Assembly (NCBI GenBank): GCA_947258975.1
Contig: CAMYKK010000037.1
Span: 1-59,524, forward strand
DNA from: an uncultured Gammaproteobacteria bacterium
GTDB lineage: Bacteria; Pseudomonadota; Gammaproteobacteria; Arenicellales; JAANXG01
Length of the DNA: 59,524 nucleotides
Reading direction: 5' to 3'
The position numbers and the translations under genes were made by a program. Under the pieces are notes generated by a model, which did not search any database, was not told the origin of the DNA, and saw only the letters and a list, made by a program, of their open reading frames with translations. Position 1 is the first letter of the stretch; every line of letters starts with the position of its first letter. Below, in pieces: positions 7,653-54,064 of this stretch.

Positions 7653-8627
7653 TCAACTATTTCCGTTTCCCCACAGCGCACTGATCATGGCGATACCCTG
7701 AGCACCCGCGCGCCGTGCCTGTTGCAGGTCGTTGGGCCGCATCCCCCCCAACGCATATACCGGTAAATTCGCCGTTGCACACAGGACGCCAAACCGACGC
7801 CAGCCCAGTGGCTCGGTCCGCGGGTGGGATCCGGTCCTGGAGACGGGGCCGAGCACGACGAAATCCGCGTTAATGCGTTTGGCCATCATCATCTCCTCCT
7901 CGCTGTGGCAAGATGCGGCTACCCAATAACGGTCGCAAAGCGGTCGCTGATCACAAGCCCGTAATCGAGATGACGTAAGATGGATGCCATCGACGCCCAT
8001 GTCTATCACCGTGCCCGCGCTCGCATTCAGCAACACCTTTGCCCCGCGGCTGCGGGACTTGGCCACAATTTCGCCGACGAATTCCCGCAACTCCGGATGC
8101 GCCATGGATTTTTCCCGCACCTGAATGAGCCCGCCACACTCCAACAATGTGTCAAGCCGGGACAACACCTGCTCACTTCCATATCTCTGCGCATCGGTAA
8201 TCAGGTACTGCGACGGCAACTGCAAGCTGCGCACGACACTCCTATTCCCTTCTAAAAAATCGACTTCTTGAAGATCCTGAGGCTGCAGCCACTGCAGCGC
8301 CTGTCCTTCACGTCCCGTGGGCGCCCCGTCATAGCTCAACACCCGCAACACATTGAGAGCAATAGGTCGATCGGGGTAATCATGATGCACCGTAACCCAC
8401 GATTCCGCCCGCCCGACACGTATTCCCAGCTCCTCCTCCAATTCACGTCGCAACGCCTGTCCAACAGTCTCACCGCGCTTCAGTTTTCCACCTGGGAATT
8501 CCCACTTGCCGCAGTGGTGGTCCGGATACTTGCGCTGCGCGATGAGTATCCTTCCGCCGCCATCCGTCACAATGCCGGCAGCAACCTCAATCCGGTCAGG
8601 TACGGTATTCGGCGTTGATGCGCACAT
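7653..8627 (-). CDS. Nudix (MutT-type) hydrolase fused to a ThiE-like domain
   Basis: 324 residues. The N-terminal half is a MutT-like hydrolase expected to remove 8-oxo-dGTP. Its Nudix box runs from GGKLKRGE through RELEEELG (residues about 46-69), with G46, E53 and the RE..EE cluster in place. The C-terminal half (about 140-324) resembles thiamine phosphate synthase (the VREK, HLTSSRL and FVVLGPVSRTGSH stretches). This fusion is widespread in gammaproteobacteria beside argJ and secA; the role of the ThiE-like part there is unclear. I placed the start at the ATG at 8627 (MCASTPNTVPDRIEVAAGIV), overlapping the end of argJ by 32 bases. Upstream codons in the same open frame are an argJ shadow. 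Confidence 0.9.
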   Translation of the reverse strand: MCASTPNTVPDRIEVAAGIVTDGGGRILIAQRKYPDHHCGKWEFPGGKLKRGETVGQALRRELEEELGIRVGRAESWVTVHHDYPDRPIALNVLRVLSYDGAPTGREGQALQWLQPQDLQEVDFLEGNRSVVRSLQLPSQYLITDAQRYGSEQVLSRLDTLLECGGLIQVREKSMAHPELREFVGEIVAKSRSRGAKVLLNASAGTVIDMGVDGIHLTSSRLRACDQRPLCDRYWVAASCHSEEEMMMAKRINADFVVLGPVSRTGSHPRTEPLGWRRFGVLCATANLPVYALGGMRPNDLQQARRAGAQGIAMISALWGNGNS

Positions 8628-20659: not shown

Positions 20660-22054
20660 CTAATCTCCACAGCCCTCGATAGCCAGCTTTTTTGACGCTT
20701 GCCCAATGTCTCCGGCACCCAAGGTCAGGATCACATCTTGATCCTGCACGATGGACGACAATGCCTGCGGTAAATCCGTTAACGACGGAATGAAAATTGG
20801 ATCGGCCCGTCCCCGCGCACGAATGGCCCGGCACAACGCGCGCCCGTCGGCGCCGCTAAGCAATGGTTCACCCGCAGCGTACACCTCAGTAACGATGAGC
20901 GGATCATGGTCGGCCAAGACCTGGCTGAAGTCATCGATAAGATCCCGCGTGCGCGTATAACGATGGGGCTGAAATACAACCACCAACCGCCGGTCCGGCC
21001 AACTATCGGCAGCGGCGCGTAAGGTCGCATAGATCTCGCGCGGATGGTGGGCGTAATCATCCACCAACAACGCCGAACCATGTTTGACTTTGATCTCGCC
21101 ACGTATGTCAAATCGGCGGTCGATGCCTTGAAAATCTCGCAGCCCGTCCATGAGCGCCTGCTCAGAGACACCCAACTCATCCCCGACTGCGATCGCGGCC
21201 AATGCATTGCGAACATTGTGCCGCCCCGGTATCGGCAATTCGACAGCCAGGGGCGTCCTGCGGCCGGGCCGCATGACCTCGAAACGCATCGCCGGTCCGT
21301 GTTGTTGAATATTAGTGGCATAAACATCAGCTACCGACGTCGTGCCGTAGGTTCGTATTGGTTTTCGTACCTGCGGACTGATCTCACGCACCACTGGATC
21401 ATCAATGCATAAAACCGCAAGACCGTAGAACGGAAGATTCTGAATGAAATCGACAAAGGTTTGCTTGAGCACACCGAAGTCGCCTTCATAGGTATCCATA
21501 TGATCCGCGTCGATATTCGTTACTACTGCTATCAGCGGTTGCAGATGTAAAAATGAGGCATCGCTTTCGTCAGCCTCGGCCACCAGGTATTCGCCGCTTC
21601 CCAACTTGGCGTTGGACATGGCGCTGTTGACCTGGCCGCCGACTACGAACGTCGGATCCAAGCCACCGCGGGCAAGGACGCTTGCCACCAGGCTCGTTGC
21701 GGTGGTCTTTCCATGCGTACCCGCCACTGCGATGCCCTTTCTAAATCGCATCAGTTCTGCGAGCATCTCCGCCCGTGGGATGACCGGGATCTTGGCGTTC
21801 AAGGCCGCGTCGACTTCGGAGTTGTGTTCCTTCACCGCCGTGGATGTGACGACCACATCACAACGACTTACCGCAGCGGCATCATGACCAATACGAATAT
21901 CGGCGCCAAATTTCCGCAATCGCCGGATGGCCGCGTTCTCAATCAGATCAGATCCGGAGACCCGGTAACCCAAGTTGATCAGCACCTCGGCGATACCGCT
22001 CATGCCGCTGCCTCCAATGCCCACGAAATGAATTCGCTGAACGCTGTCACGCAC
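20660..22054 (-). CDS. murC: UDP-N-acetylmuramate--L-alanine ligase MurC
   Basis: First amino-acid ligase of the peptidoglycan precursor pathway. 464 residues: an N-terminal UDP-binding domain (HFVGIGGSGMSGIAEVL, 9-25), P-loop AGTHGKTTATS (111-121), central EADESDASFL and NIDADHMDTY, and a C-terminal domain with VDDYAHHPREI. The start is a GTG overlapping the end of murG by eight bases. Confidence 0.98.
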   Translation of the reverse strand: MRDSVQRIHFVGIGGSGMSGIAEVLINLGYRVSGSDLIENAAIRRLRKFGADIRIGHDAAAVSRCDVVVTSTAVKEHNSEVDAALNAKIPVIPRAEMLAELMRFRKGIAVAGTHGKTTATSLVASVLARGGLDPTFVVGGQVNSAMSNAKLGSGEYLVAEADESDASFLHLQPLIAVVTNIDADHMDTYEGDFGVLKQTFVDFIQNLPFYGLAVLCIDDPVVREISPQVRKPIRTYGTTSVADVYATNIQQHGPAMRFEVMRPGRRTPLAVELPIPGRHNVRNALAAIAVGDELGVSEQALMDGLRDFQGIDRRFDIRGEIKVKHGSALLVDDYAHHPREIYATLRAAADSWPDRRLVVVFQPHRYTRTRDLIDDFSQVLADHDPLIVTEVYAAGEPLLSGADGRALCRAIRARGRADPIFIPSLTDLPQALSSIVQDQDVILTLGAGDIGQASKKLAIEGCGD

Positions 22055-23117
22055 GCAGGACCTCCATGCAGATATCCACGACCCGTACCGTCGCCTGGGG
22101 CCTGGAAAGCTGCCGCGCTCGCCGCGCCATGTCCACGATTTCTCCCCGCTTTTGGCTCCAGCGGCACAGTGTCTCGGTTAATCGTCTCGCAGTAAGATCT
22201 CGTTGCGGAATGACGATGGCCGCGTTCTGTTGAGCGAGGTAATTCGCGTTGGCTGTTTGGTGGTCACCCACCGCGTAGGGAAAGGGAACAAAGATGGTCG
22301 CAACACCCGCCGCACTGACTTCCGCCACGGTCATTGCACCGGCCCGGCAAAGCACCACATCCGCCCAGCCGTACGCTTGCGCCATATCGTCAATGAACTC
22401 ATCGACCCGAACCGCAAGCCCGAACCGTTGATACGCTGCATTGACGGAGTCGGCGTTGCCGGCCCCGGCTTGATGCCAGACTTCCGGCGTGGGCTGCAGC
22501 CCGTTGATCGCTGCGGGGACCAACTCATTGAATACCTTCGCCCCTTGACTGCCACCTACGACCAGCAGCCGCAGTTCGCCATGACGATTCGCGAGCCGCG
22601 ATGTGGGGTCCGGAAGTTGGAAGATCTCTCTGCGCACCGGATTGCCGACGCATTCCGCGTCAACCCCCTTGGGGAAGGTGTCGGGAAAACCGGTCATAAC
22701 TTTAGATCCCAGCCGCGCCAACACCCGGTTCGTGAGACCGGCTATGGCATTTGCCTCGTGAATCAGTAACGGGCGGCGAAGCAACCATGCGACGACGCCA
22801 CCGGGCCCGGCGACAAACCCGCCCATCCCCAATAACGCAGCCGGGCGACGGCGCAAAATCACGCCGATGGTTTGCAGCATCGCGGTGAGCAGCAAAAACG
22901 GCGTGCGCAACAGACCCCACATGCCCTTGCCGCGCAGCCCACGAATGCTGATCCATTCGATGTCAAATCCGGCAGCGGGTACGGAACGGGCTTCGATACC
23001 GGACCTTGTGCCCAACCACACGATGTGGACGCCTCGGCGGCGTAAATTCTCCGCTACCGTGAGCGCAGGAAAAACGTGCCCTCCCGTTCCGCCGGCCATA
23101 ATCAGCAATGTGCTCAT
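22047..23117 (-). CDS. murG: UDP-GlcNAc:lipid I N-acetylglucosaminyltransferase MurG
   Basis: Peripheral inner-membrane GT-B enzyme that makes lipid II. 356 residues. It has MAGGTGGHVFPALTVAE near the N-terminus (7-23), a second G-rich loop GMGGFVAGPGG, IHEANAIAGLTNR, and the C-terminal donor site VVGGSQGAKVFNE and AGAMTVAEVSAAG. It overlaps the ftsW C-terminal ORF by four bases (ATGA). Confidence 0.98.
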   Translation of the reverse strand: MSTLLIMAGGTGGHVFPALTVAENLRRRGVHIVWLGTRSGIEARSVPAAGFDIEWISIRGLRGKGMWGLLRTPFLLLTAMLQTIGVILRRRPAALLGMGGFVAGPGGVVAWLLRRPLLIHEANAIAGLTNRVLARLGSKVMTGFPDTFPKGVDAECVGNPVRREIFQLPDPTSRLANRHGELRLLVVGGSQGAKVFNELVPAAINGLQPTPEVWHQAGAGNADSVNAAYQRFGLAVRVDEFIDDMAQAYGWADVVLCRAGAMTVAEVSAAGVATIFVPFPYAVGDHQTANANYLAQQNAAIVIPQRDLTARRLTETLCRWSQKRGEIVDMARRARQLSRPQATVRVVDICMEVLRA

Positions 23118-23716
23118 CGCACCGCTCCCGGTTTTCGGTGCGATGCGCGGTCAACCGCGAGCAATAAGCCGACCGCGATACAACTGGCGAGCAGGCTTGA
23201 ACCACCGTAACTCAAAAACGGCAGCGTCAAACCCTTGGTCGGCAACACCCCGGTGTTCACACCGATATTGATCATAGCTTGAATCGCCAGAAGCAATCCG
23301 ATCCCCTGGGCGAGACGCGCGGCGTATATTTCTCCAAAGCGTTCTGCACGGCGGGCAATTGCGAATGCGCGCCATAACAGGACACCGAACAACATGATCA
23401 CGAACAACACGCCGATTAGGCCCAGTTCCTCGGCAATTACCGCGAGAAGAAAATCTGTATCGGCATGAGGCAGGTAGTAAAGTTTCTGAATACTGGCACC
23501 CAAGCCCACGCCAAACCATTCGCCGCGACCGAATGCGATCAACGCTTGCACCAGCTGAAATCCGCTGTCAAAGGGGTCCGACCATGGGTTCATGAAGCTC
23601 ATGACACGTTCGGTCCGGTACGGCGAGATAACGGTCAACACCACCATTGCCGCAACACCCAGCAATACACACAACAAAAAATGCCAGAATCGAATGCCAC
23701 CTAGAAATAACATCAT
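23114..23716 (-). CDS. ftsW: FtsW, C-terminal half (split gene)
   Basis: 200 residues matching the second half of the SEDS glycosyltransferase FtsW, from the end of membrane segment 6 onward: MMLFLGGIRFW, then ERVMSFMNPWSDPFDSGFQL, AFGRGEWFGVGLGASIQKL, LPHADTDFLLAVIAEELG and LPTKGLTLPFLSYGGSS. It is in a different frame from the N-terminal half and overlaps it by four bases (ATGA). Its ATG has GGAG eight bases upstream, supplied by the codons for Leu-Glu of the first half, so separate translation is possible. About 12 residues expected between the halves are missing. Confidence 0.85.
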   Translation of the reverse strand: MMLFLGGIRFWHFLLCVLLGVAAMVVLTVISPYRTERVMSFMNPWSDPFDSGFQLVQALIAFGRGEWFGVGLGASIQKLYYLPHADTDFLLAVIAEELGLIGVLFVIMLFGVLLWRAFAIARRAERFGEIYAARLAQGIGLLLAIQAMINIGVNTGVLPTKGLTLPFLSYGGSSLLASCIAVGLLLAVDRASHRKPGAVR

Positions 23717-24243
23717 GAATCGGGCTCCAGAAGCAATAACAGCGCGAGCACCGCTAACACGATGCCGATTACCAATACCCCTTGACTGAATTCCCCTAAC
23801 GCCTCACGGTTGCGTGTGAGATAAGCGGCGGCATAGATCACCGTCGCCACTTTGGTGAACTCGGAAGGCTGAATCCGCAGCGTGCCCAACTCGAGCCAGC
23901 GAACGCTGCCATTCACCTCGATCCCTATACCGGGGAGCAGTAACGCGGCTAACGCCAGGATACATAAAATCAATAACGGTTTGCTGATTCGCTCCCACCA
24001 GCTAATCCGCGTCAACGCGACGAGCAAGATCAGCGCTATGCCAACGGCGGCATGTATCGCGTGCCGCGTAAGATGCTGAAAGCTGGTAGCGAGGGACTGG
24101 CTTCCACTCGCGATTGTCGCCGAATAGACCATCACCATACTGAAACTCAACAGTGCTAGAATCACTCCCGCCAGCCAGGGGTCAACGCGTGGCGCCGGGG
24201 CCGTGTCGTTGGCGCGGATCGCCTGTGAAACAGCGGACGTCAT
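23713..24243 (-). CDS. ftsW: FtsW, N-terminal half (split gene)
   Basis: 176 residues matching FtsW from the N-terminus through membrane segment 5: VDPWLAGVILALLSFSMVMV, SWWERISKPLLIL, GSVRWLELGTLRIQPSEFTK, then GIVLAVLALLLLLEPDS and stop. Normal FtsW continues EPDFG(T/S)..., through segment 6, so the frame ends where about 34 bases appear deleted. The start ATG overlaps the murD stop (ATGA). FtsW polymerises glycan at the septum with FtsI and is normally essential, so this is either a sequence error, a broken gene with a copy elsewhere, or a two-piece protein. Confidence 0.85.
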   Translation of the reverse strand: MTSAVSQAIRANDTAPAPRVDPWLAGVILALLSFSMVMVYSATIASGSQSLATSFQHLTRHAIHAAVGIALILLVALTRISWWERISKPLLILCILALAALLLPGIGIEVNGSVRWLELGTLRIQPSEFTKVATVIYAAAYLTRNREALGEFSQGVLVIGIVLAVLALLLLLEPDS

Positions 24244-25619
24244 GCAGCCAGCTCCTTCACCAGGGAGCAAAAAACATCGCCCCGTTGCTCGAAATTCTCA
24301 AACATGTCGAAGCTGGCACATGCCGGCGACAACATCACTACATCACCGGCTCGCGCCAGCTTGCCCGCAACCTGTACAGCGTCGCGTAGCGTTTTCACGC
24401 GATGACAATGCGTCACGTCGTCAACAACAGCCTCGAGGTTGGCGGCATCCTGACCGAACAGCACTGCCGCGCGCACGTGTTGCGCGACCACATTTCTTAG
24501 CGGAAAAAAATCTGCCGCCTTTCCGTCACCGCCGGCGATAAGAATCACCGGTGACTCACAACCCTTCAATGCCGCCACCGTCGCGCCCACATTGGTGGCC
24601 TTTGAATCATTCACCCAGCGGATCCCGTCTTGCGCCAACACCATCTCGGCACGATGGCGCAGCCCGGCGAAGTGACGTACCGCATGCACCATTGCGCTTG
24701 ATGACACGCCGGCAACGCTTGCCAATGCCATCGCCGCCATCACATTCTCGAGGTTGTGGCCCCCGAACAGCGGTACTTGTTCGCGCGGCATCAACTTTTC
24801 TGCGCCCCGCACCAACCACCACGTACCTCCGTGCGCTATCAATCCGAGCTCATCGTCACGTTGCGGAGCGGAGCACCCAAAGGTGCATGTGGATCTTTGC
24901 GGTGGCACCAGCGCCAACGTCGCGGGGTCATCGCGATTCACCACCGCCACCCCGGCGCCGTGAAAGATCCTCGCCTTGGCCTTTGTATAGGCGTTCAAAT
25001 CGGGATACCGATCCATATGATCGGGACTCACATTCAACACTGCCGCGGCCTTGGGCCGTAGACTCGATGTGGTTTCCAGTTGAAAACTGGATAACTCGAG
25101 CACGTACCAATCCGGCACTCGCTCGGCAGAGGTGAGGAGGTCCAACACCGGCACACCGATATTGCCGCCCAACGGAGCATCCAGCCCAGCCACGCGGCAC
25201 ATTTCGCCGATCAACGCCGTAACGGTGCTTTTTCCATTCGAACCGGTGACCGCAATGATCGGCGCGCGCACATGGCGTGCAAACAATTCCACGTCGCCGG
25301 CCACTTCCACACCGCGTTCGCGGACTTGTTGAATGGCCGGTTCATGAATCGATATCCCGGGGCTGACTACAACGATGTCCGCGTCCGCCATCAACTCGGG
25401 TTCAAAACCAATGTGCAGGGGAACATTCGGATGTAGCGCCGTGAATTGAGTCTTCATCGGCGGAGTCGTGCGGGAATCCACCACTTTGACATGATATCCA
25501 TGATCCGCCAGAAAGCGTACACAACTCATGCCCGTCTTACCGAGCCCCACCACCACCGCGGATGCCTGGGCGCGCGCCACGTCAATCGCCTCGTCGCAGC
25601 ATTGAAGCTCCGCGGTCAT
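24240..25619 (-). CDS. murD: UDP-N-acetylmuramoylalanine--D-glutamate ligase MurD
   Basis: Adds D-glutamate to UDP-MurNAc-L-Ala. About 459 residues from the ATG at 25619; a GTG six codons earlier is possible. Features: VVVGLGKTGMSCVRFLADHG near the N-terminus, the P-loop AVTGSNGKSTVTALIGEMC, central LELSSFQLETTSSL and LNVSPDHMDRY, and the C-terminal NDSKATNVGATVAAL and LSPACASFDMF motifs. It carries about 20 residues more at the N-terminus than E. coli MurD. ftsW overlaps its stop codon. Confidence 0.97.
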   Translation of the reverse strand: MTAELQCCDEAIDVARAQASAVVVGLGKTGMSCVRFLADHGYHVKVVDSRTTPPMKTQFTALHPNVPLHIGFEPELMADADIVVVSPGISIHEPAIQQVRERGVEVAGDVELFARHVRAPIIAVTGSNGKSTVTALIGEMCRVAGLDAPLGGNIGVPVLDLLTSAERVPDWYVLELSSFQLETTSSLRPKAAAVLNVSPDHMDRYPDLNAYTKAKARIFHGAGVAVVNRDDPATLALVPPQRSTCTFGCSAPQRDDELGLIAHGGTWWLVRGAEKLMPREQVPLFGGHNLENVMAAMALASVAGVSSSAMVHAVRHFAGLRHRAEMVLAQDGIRWVNDSKATNVGATVAALKGCESPVILIAGGDGKAADFFPLRNVVAQHVRAAVLFGQDAANLEAVVDDVTHCHRVKTLRDAVQVAGKLARAGDVVMLSPACASFDMFENFEQRGDVFCSLVKELAA

Positions 25620-25659
25620 ACATCCGCCCTTGGCCACAATGTAAATTGCATCGCAGTTA

Positions 25660-32502: not shown

Positions 32503-32961
32503 TCATAGGGACAATGATTCCAGTTCCACAGGTAACGGGCCTTCTTCTTCCATGTCCCTTGACAGCCATTCTTCGCGTCGAGAATTCCACAGTTCTTCGT
32601 TCCAGATTTCGAACTTGTTGCCTTGTCCGATCATGACCACACGCTTTTTCAGCTCGGCAAAATCACGCAGGGGCCCGGGCAGTAGCACACGGCCACTGGC
32701 GTCGAGGTCGCAATCGTTTGCGTGGCCGATTAGGATGCGTTTTAATCGCTGCGCGTTGCCGTTGAGACTGGGCAGATTGACCAGTTTCCGCTCGATCACT
32801 TCCCACTCGATCAGCGGATAAAGCCATAGGCAGCGTTCGTTGTCGTTGATGGTGACCACCATCCGGCCTTCGGTTTGCCGAAGCAGGCCATCCCGATAGC
32901 GCGTTGGGATTGCCAGCCGGCCTTTGGCATCCAGGTTAAGCGTGTTGACGCCGCGGAACAT
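32503..32961 (-). CDS. mraZ: transcriptional regulator MraZ
   Basis: 152 residues with two SpoVT/AbrB-like halves (FRGVNTLNLDAKGRLAIPTR, and ANDCDLDASGRVLLPGPLRD), each with the DxxGR core. MraZ forms rings that bind short TGGGN repeats in its own promoter and repress the dcw operon. Matching repeats are present just upstream. First gene of the dcw run. Confidence 0.97.
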   Translation of the reverse strand: MFRGVNTLNLDAKGRLAIPTRYRDGLLRQTEGRMVVTINDNERCLWLYPLIEWEVIERKLVNLPSLNGNAQRLKRILIGHANDCDLDASGRVLLPGPLRDFAELKKRVVMIGQGNKFEIWNEELWNSRREEWLSRDMEEEGPLPVELESLSL

Positions 32962-32982
32962 TGCCCCTCACCTGCCCGATTT

Positions 32983-33007
32983 ATCCACGTTTTCCCACTT
33001 CTCCCCA
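32983..33007 (-). promoter_or_regulatory. MraZ operator: three direct repeats upstream of mraZ
   Basis: On the minus strand TGGGG (33007-33003), TGGGA (32997-32993) and TGGAT (32987-32983) repeat every 10 bases, matching the TGGGN-N5 direct repeats bound by MraZ in E. coli and other bacteria. They lie between the promoter and the start codon, where binding would block transcription. Confidence 0.75.
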
Positions 33008-33018
33008 CTAATAAACAC

Positions 33019-33048
33019 ACTATAGAGAGGTCAAATGGCCGGTGTCAA
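33019..33048 (-). promoter_or_regulatory. sigma-70 promoter of the dcw operon
   Basis: A perfect -35 TTGACA (33048-33043) and a -10 TATAGT (33024-33019, 5 of 6) are separated by 18 bases on the minus strand. Transcription would begin near 33012, just before the MraZ repeats and about 50 bases before the mraZ ATG. Confidence 0.75.
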
Positions 33049-33301
33049 GCAAAAAACGGTTCCGATCCAACCAAGATTCTCCCTTATCTGACAATCGGTT
33101 ACGTCGTTTTTACTCGAGCCCGCGTGCACCGCGCGGCACACCTCAACGGCGGCGGGAAGCTCCCACCGCGCTCCAATCGCGAATCCCCCGCGATAACCGG
33201 ACCTAGCCTTTTGAAATTAATGGGCATTTTGGGCACTGACGCGCGCACGGCGGGAGTGCCCGCGCGGCGTGCGCGGATGCGGCGTGCGCGAGAGAGGGGA
33301 T

Positions 33302-33714
33302 GAGAGTCAGCCTGTAAGCCGGGTTCTGTCGGGGACAATCATTCATCTGGGACAGGCGTCGCCACCTGCCTCGAGCGACCTACCCGGACCCGGTGCGGGC
33401 CACACCAAGGGGTCCCTATGCGGTCTTGCTCCAGGTGGGGTTTGCCCTGCCACGGGCGTTACCGCCCGCGCGGTGCGCTCTTACCGCACCTTTTCACCCT
33501 TACCGGCCACCTACCCTCGGACGACCCAGTACAGACCGGTACACCGTCTCTCGCGCCGTGTACACGGGTCCTGACGCGCCCCAGGGTAGGCGACCGGCGG
33601 TATATTTTCTGTGGCACTTTCCGTCGGCTCGCGCCGCCCAGGCGTTACCTGGCACCCTGCCCTATGGAGCCCGGACTTTCCTCCCCCGAAGGGGCGACTG
33701 TCCGGCTGACTCTC
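33302..33714 (-). ncRNA. rnpB: RNase P RNA (class A)
   Basis: Catalytic RNA that matures tRNA 5' ends. On the minus strand the 5' part contains GGACAGTCGCCCC, then GAGGAAAGTCCGGGCTCC. The middle has GGTAAGGGTGAAAAGGTGCG and GTAAGAGCGCACC, and the 3' part has AGATGAATGATTGTCC and ACAGAACCCGGCTTACAGG. The terminal GAGTCAGCC/GGCTGACTC pairing closes the molecule. About 413 bases, slightly long for the family. Between rsmI and mraZ, as in many gammaproteobacteria. Ends are approximate. Confidence 0.96.
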
Positions 33715-53287: not shown

Positions 53288-53579
53288 TATTACCCTCTCT
53301 CGTGTATAGTAATGCGACTCGGTTGTAAATCGTTGCTAGTATAGTCGGTTAGAAGGTTACTGCATTCTGCGCCAAAGAATAACCAAGGATTTTGATGGCG
53401 GAACATAACTTGCGTTTATCGCCTCCCGCCAGCGCATGATAGCTGCCATGATCAATCCCCGCCATGCCGCAGCGGAAAGAATTCGACAGGTCAACGCCAG
53501 GCATTTCCGCATGGACGATCCGCCGTGCCTGTTGGTTTACGCACCCGTTGGGGTGCCGCTATGATCCACCCGCTTATTC
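53288..53579. other. intergenic region between the FadL-type porin and the Sel1 gene
   Basis: Together with the repeat end that follows, 336 bases without a recognised gene. It must hold the promoter of the porin gene (minus strand). A 38-codon frame on the plus strand (53448-53564, starting MINPRHAAAERIRQVNARHF) is open and has an ATG but no recognisable family; it may be a remnant or chance. Confidence 0.5.
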
Positions 53580-53613
53580 TAACCCGCATATTGCACCAAG
53601 GCGGAATTAAAGG
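53580..53613 (+). repeat. dispersed palindromic element, solitary end (copy D)
   Basis: TAACCCGCATATTGCACCAA followed by GGCGGAATTAAAGGAG matches the reverse complement of the right end of copy B (GCCCGCATACTGCACCAAGG, CGGCGAAAAGAGGAG). No other part of the element is found beside it. Its terminal AAAGGAG doubles as the Shine-Dalgarno of the Sel1 gene that starts at 53624. Confidence 0.65.
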
Positions 53614-53623
53614 AGCGCGACTG

Positions 53624-54064
53624 ATGCCTGAGACCGACGACGAGATGAATCTAGCCAGCGGAATCGCGGCGTTCGAAGCCAAGCACTTCGCGCGCGCCCT
53701 GCAACTGCTCGCGCCGATTGCCGACCAAGGTCACCCCGCGGCGCAATACCGGCTGGCGATCATGTATCAAAATGGGCTGGGGACGGTGCGCAATGAGATC
53801 GCCGCCCGCAAGTGGATGCGGACGGCCGCCGAGCAAGGTCTGGGGCTCGCCCAGCACGGCCTGGGATTCATGTTCATGGAGGGGGACTGCGTGGAGCGGA
53901 ACGGGGATGAGGCAGTAAAGTGGTTCACCAAGGCCGCTAATCAAGGGCTCGTAGGCTCGCAGACCACGCTGGCCATGATTTACGAAGAAGGCCGCGTGGT
54001 GCCAAAGGATCTGCAAAAAGCCAGACAGTGGTATACAAAGGCCGGCTTCGAGGACCAGGTATAA
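53624..54064 (+). CDS. Sel1-like repeat protein
   Basis: 146 residues from the ATG at 53624, which has AAAGGAG 11 bases upstream; the open frame extends 33 codons further without support. About three Sel1 repeats: PAAQYRLAIMYQNGLGTVRN, LAQHGLGFMFMEGDCVERN and SQTTLAMIYEEGRVVPKDLQ, each with the following AxxWxxxAAxQG pattern. No signal peptide, so cytoplasmic. Such solenoids mediate protein-protein contacts; no partner is evident. Its ribosome site lies in a repeat-element end. Confidence 0.85.
   Translation: MPETDDEMNLASGIAAFEAKHFARALQLLAPIADQGHPAAQYRLAIMYQNGLGTVRNEIAARKWMRTAAEQGLGLAQHGLGFMFMEGDCVERNGDEAVKWFTKAANQGLVGSQTTLAMIYEEGRVVPKDLQKARQWYTKAGFEDQV

Follow-up and report, generated by a model that had tools for sequence, protein, structure and literature searches.

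In the window, the whole stretch of 59,524 nucleotides that was analysed, the cell division gene ftsW is read as two overlapping open reading frames (ORFs), and this break is probably an artefact of assembly rather than a new kind of enzyme, a cause that we infer from comparison with related genomes. Around 34 bases would have been dropped locally when the consensus of a probably metagenome-derived genome was built, so that an intact single-copy ftsW would appear as two ORFs, while the living cell would carry a normal full-length FtsW, polymerising septal peptidoglycan together with FtsI. An assembly cause offers the best explanation because sister assemblies contain out-of-frame deletions of a similar kind, among them one in murD, the loss of which should be lethal. 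A sequence or assembly error had been named as one alternative in the first-pass annotation, and it is the best supported one, given the intact gene of the relatives and the like deletions in sister assemblies. The window lies on contig C37 of a genome (G000) of 5.49 Mb in 214 contigs, with a completeness of 96% and a contamination of 2.4%. The nearest named relatives are metagenome assemblies of uncultured gammaproteobacteria, which makes the same origin probable for this genome.

The two ORFs (Table 1) overlap as ATGA, and their ends and starts, as first annotated, agree with both the sequence and the ORF coordinates. The net loss, put at about 34 bases in that annotation, amounts to exactly 34 nt in comparison to the loci of five same-genus genomes (G001-G005), and the gap at 23718/23717 is the sole internal one in the aligned stretch of the gene. 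It shifts the frame and removes the first half of the helix following the EPD motif, which by the usual topology would be membrane segment 6. The earlier description of this segment as missing holds for its first half, but the helix is not wholly lost, as MMLFLGG stays. EPD is retained and the residues after it are gone, so the conserved PD[FL]G segment with which the next helix begins, and which the intact same-genus relatives have, is absent here. The C-terminal part starts at native Met-Met codons and carries WSDPFDSGFQL, presumably the loop motif of the large periplasmic loop of FtsW. The ftsW start codon overlaps the end of murD, and the end of the C-terminal ORF overlaps the start of murG.

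Table 1. Coordinates of the broken ftsW gene and of neighbouring features in the window
Feature	Position	Strand	Details
murG, intact	22047..23117	(-)	Name presumed from cluster position and usual gene order
ftsW, C-terminal part, 200 aa	23114..23716	(-)	ATG 23716 to stop at 23114; starts MMLFLGGIRFW
ftsW, N-terminal part, 176 aa	23713..24243	(-)	ATG 24243 to frame-shifted TGA 23713; ends LLLLLEPDS
Deletion junction	23717..23718	(-)	34 nt absent here, present in 5/5 same-genus relatives
murD, intact in the window	24240..25637	(-)	TIGR01087, 443.1 bits, over cut-off
RNase P RNA	33299-33713	(-)	RF00010, 324.3 bits; lies immediately upstream of mraZ

Both parts are recognised by family profiles. 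The C-terminal part scores 232.5 bits with PF01098 (FtsW/RodA/SpoVE; profile 166-354) and 261.1 bits with TIGR02614 (FtsW; positions 169-356), and the N-terminal part scores 100.1 bits (profile 6-153) and 131.5 bits (positions 1-156), respectively; neither half alone reaches the full-length cut-off of TIGR02614 (337.5 bits) in one reading frame. The deletion consists of 34 clean bases between well-preserved flanks, free of Ns, and is not a homopolymer slip. No microhomology was seen by eye at the junction, an observation which is uninformative taken alone; the hairpin in the lost segment is weak (DNA fold z-score -1.5, with 17/200 shuffles folding equally well), and a 25-base piece of the segment gave no match against viral contigs.

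The lesion is private to this genome among the assemblies compared. The gene is intact in all five same-genus genomes, and the frame is open upstream of the junction, for at least 110 codons, and across it in 62/62 homologous loci, a set made up of ftsW, rodA and further SEDS genes. In a survey of SEDS genes across 60 genomes (G000 and 59 relatives), two pieces of one gene on one contig were found in 0/59 relatives, the partial matches elsewhere being located on different contigs. On the scale of the class, FtsW lies above the full-length cut-off in 211 of 232 genomes by tally. Of the 21 below it, 17 were rechecked and no side-by-side split was recognised in them, a single SEDS gene being found in 12; the other four are G000 itself, two genomes of 0.3-0.4 Mb without a match, and G094, whose FtsW is inferred to be near full length from an E-value of 1.9e-100. 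Among the papers listed from the open-access literature searched, neither a natural split of FtsW nor a break of ftsW by frameshift or pseudogene formation appears in titles or in the opening lines of abstracts.

These comparisons bear on a further reading, namely a working split FtsW in which translation terminates and reinitiates at the ATGA and the two halves come together again in the membrane although part of one helix is lacking. We consider it very unlikely. The retention of the WSDPFDSGFQL motif in the C-terminal half is in its favour, and the ATGA overlap, with GGAG upstream, could permit reinitiation. The first-pass annotation had seen in these two features a sign that the break is "not random wreckage", a reading which does not survive the comparison with intact relatives, where both are native codons. 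GGAG lies within Leu-Glu codons and is found in 3/5 same-genus loci, ATGATG (Met-Met) likewise in 3/5, and the two occur together in 1/5. Moreover, 34 nt is 1 mod 3, so that once they are lost ahead of the Met-Met codons, the first frame runs into the TGA contained in ATGATG. Since the same places are coding in intact relatives and the 34-nt loss itself leads onto this TGA, the overlap and the GGAG are by-products of ancestral codons. A working split is further disfavoured by the loss of the F/L-G after PD, common to nearly all FtsW-like loci aligned, by the absence of any window-specific change near the junction, by eye, that would suggest adaptation, and by the lack of any same-contig split in the 59 relatives and of any side-by-side split in the 17 rechecked genomes of the class sample described above. 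Nothing positive was found for a functioning split SEDS polymerase, and it is most improbable that FtsW exists here naturally as two polypeptides, with half of one helix lost and ATGA reinitiation, while still being essential for division.

Selection on the remains of the gene was assessed through three-taxon branch estimates of dN/dS. In the trio with G002 and G004, the window branch gave 0.131 for the N-terminal part (bootstrap 0.068-0.212) and 0.017 for the C-terminal part (bootstrap 0.000-0.047), and in the trio with G005 and G002 the values were 0.113 and 0.026, respectively. The neighbouring genes range from 0.004 to 0.190 (15 genes in the G002/G004 trio, 11 in the G005/G002 trio). Both halves are under purifying selection like their neighbours, and neither has decayed; therefore, the break is either very recent or not real. 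An artefact, a deletion of very recent date and a working split are all compatible with this result, which counts against an old pseudogene. The purifying selection kept in both halves is a point for a working split, but dN/dS mostly describes the time before the break.

The first-pass annotation had also named as an alternative that the broken copy is a pseudogene and that the genome holds another, intact ftsW; such a copy would make the loss harmless. This proposal is without support in the assembly, and its probability is close to negligible. A family search of the assembly returned one other SEDS gene, on contig C55, which reads as rodA and lies beside a PBP2-like gene. With the FtsW of a relative as query, the matches were the two pieces and the C55 gene alone, the latter at 33% identity, and the junction DNA of a relative matched only the broken locus. 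In addition, each of the five same-genus genomes holds two SEDS genes, not three. The assembly being 96% complete, a copy could sit in unassembled DNA, but no second ftsW was found in what has been assembled.

The gene neighbourhood is otherwise in good order. In agreement with the first annotation, which had described the neighbours in the dcw operon as intact, mraZ, rsmH, ftsI, murE, murF, mraY, murD, murG, murC, murB, ddlB, ftsQ, ftsA, ftsZ and lpxC are all open, with ftsW at its place between murD and murG. The names mraZ, ftsI, ftsQ, ftsA, ftsZ and lpxC were covered by an NCBIfam scan and murD by TIGR01087; the remaining ones (rsmH, murE, murF, mraY, murG, murC, murB and ddlB) are presumed from position and usual gene order, and a frame between ftsI and rsmH is taken to be ftsL-like. 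When ORFs of G004 with matches in the window were compared (51 in total), two were flagged as split, namely ftsW and an ORF at 33.4 kb over the RNase P RNA. A second broken gene at 33.3-33.8 kb was accordingly rejected, because the ORF in question lies over that RNA. ORFs on the strand opposite RNase P RNA mimic a split gene in cross-genome comparison. With other relatives, further rows were flagged: in G005 an ORF in an overlapping frame over ftsW, in G001 and G003 the RNase P ORF, and in G006 one ORF whose N-terminal part matches another frame. As no protein gene of the window other than ftsW is clearly broken, this stretch of the assembly is not generally poor.

Deletions of the same kind were found in sister assemblies. 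The murD gene of the same-genus genome G005 (L099, G005:C169) carries a clean out-of-frame deletion of 50 nt at about 7760-7805. No other murD was found in G005, which is about 90% complete, and among the matches listed this is the only one of the 60 genomes with two adjacent murD pieces. MurD is an essential enzyme and the loss of murD is expected to be lethal; hence, a cell with this break would hardly be viable, and the break is best read as an artefact. In G004, out-of-frame deletions of 89 nt (C14, about 14800), 157 nt (C1, about 5700) and 151 nt (C3, about 105420, where the flanks are less well aligned) affect a gene for a PEP-utilising enzyme I, a YihY-like gene and an FKBP-like gene, respectively. 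The first was identified by scanning the G000 copy against Pfam, and the other two names come from a reading of the sequence. These three genes are not all essential, so the breaks in G004 may be real mutations.

The frequency of such events was estimated from reciprocal ORF comparisons covering 1.25 Mb of G000 and 1.33 Mb of G004. ORFs of G004 gave 265 ortholog-like matches in G000, of which 7 at stretch edges were set aside and 5 were flagged (ftsW, a subtilase-like gene, an in-frame gap of 936 nt and two partial alignments), with ftsW as the clean out-of-frame break. In the opposite direction, 270 ortholog-like matches were obtained, 2 of them at edges and 9 flagged. Three of the nine are the breaks in G004, two are tandem paralogues, one is the RNase P ORF and one a partial alignment, while the subtilase-like gene and the 936-nt gap reappear as reciprocal rows. 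A listing of gaps between the two genomes also gave in-frame gaps, from 12 to 936 nt long; the 151-nt deletion in the FKBP-like gene escaped it, probably since the flanks there are less alike. Furthermore, 216 ortholog comparisons (one self-match) of the window ORFs and the FtsW of one relative with six relatives resulted in 12 flagged rows. One is the murD of G005, 3 lie at edges, 4 belong to RNase P, 2 come from an ORF located between mraZ and RNase P (32875-33300), and 2 are partial alignments in G003.

The subtilase-like gene (L137, G000:C17, 13329-14246) shows several large deletions relative to G004, including an out-of-frame gap of 458 nt which was left out of the count of breaks, and is probably a degraded gene. 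Two further out-of-frame gaps lie near the 5' end of an ORF, one of 29 nt in G000 (L175, G000:C4 37181-38476) and one of 37 nt in the G004 counterpart of window positions 53525-54061; both possibly fall upstream of the true starts, and they were not counted.

Out-of-frame deletions were thus recorded in 1/265 genes of G000 (2 with the subtilase-like gene) and 3/270 genes of G004, which calls for caution: if this rate holds genome-wide, chance alone could make a few essential genes in each assembly look broken. Assuming that all these assemblies share this rate, chance would be expected to produce about one case among the approximately 120 SEDS genes that the 60 genomes carry. On the simplest reading, assemblies in this group hold occasional local deletions, one of which fell in ftsW here.

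An assembly artefact should be private to one assembly with close relatives intact, as is observed, and should show no relaxed selection in the remains, which is likewise observed but would be seen just as well after a real deletion of very recent date. Such a deletion, affecting the sampled strain as a whole or some of its population, ranks second after the assembly cause and is unlikely. Under it, ftsW would be a fresh pseudogene, and the cells would be dying, growing as filaments or saved by some other route. The clean junction agrees with a real event, as does the lack of relaxed selection if the event is very recent, and the out-of-frame deletions of the sister genome G004 hit possibly dispensable genes. 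Against it, the septal glycosyltransferase FtsW is essential in Escherichia coli, according to PMC8078798, and no second ftsW was found in the assembly. FtsW has been described as non-essential in a planctomycete devoid of FtsZ (PMC6952346), but in G000 ftsZ, ftsA, ftsQ, ftsI and all other genes of the cluster are open. The artefact reading has its limits as well, in that the 34 bases are clean, the window is not generally poor, and the murD break concerns a single gene of a single further assembly.

If a working split SEDS polymerase were true, the fold would tolerate both cutting and the loss of part of a core helix. In comparison to known systems, the locus resembles FtsW (TIGR02614 / PF01098; PDB 8bh1) in its dcw place between murD and murG and in the alignment of both halves, and the intact FtsW of a same-genus relative (L034) aligns with 8bh1 chain A over residues 24-376; it differs in the 34 missing nucleotides, the frame shift, the two ORFs and the absence of part of a helix together with the post-EPD residues. 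Many bacterial pseudogenes are assembly errors, according to Cooley and Wright 2024 (PMC11017572), and ftsW resembles such spurious pseudogenes in being a conserved gene broken in one assembly, whole in close relatives and with no second copy found. That paper refers to frameshifts and internal stops in general, whereas the present case is a clean deletion of 34 nt. The murD of G005 is a different gene in a different assembly, with 50 nt lost instead of 34 and a different ORF overlap, but like ftsW it is an essential dcw gene with a clean out-of-frame deletion, seen in one assembly only among the matches listed.
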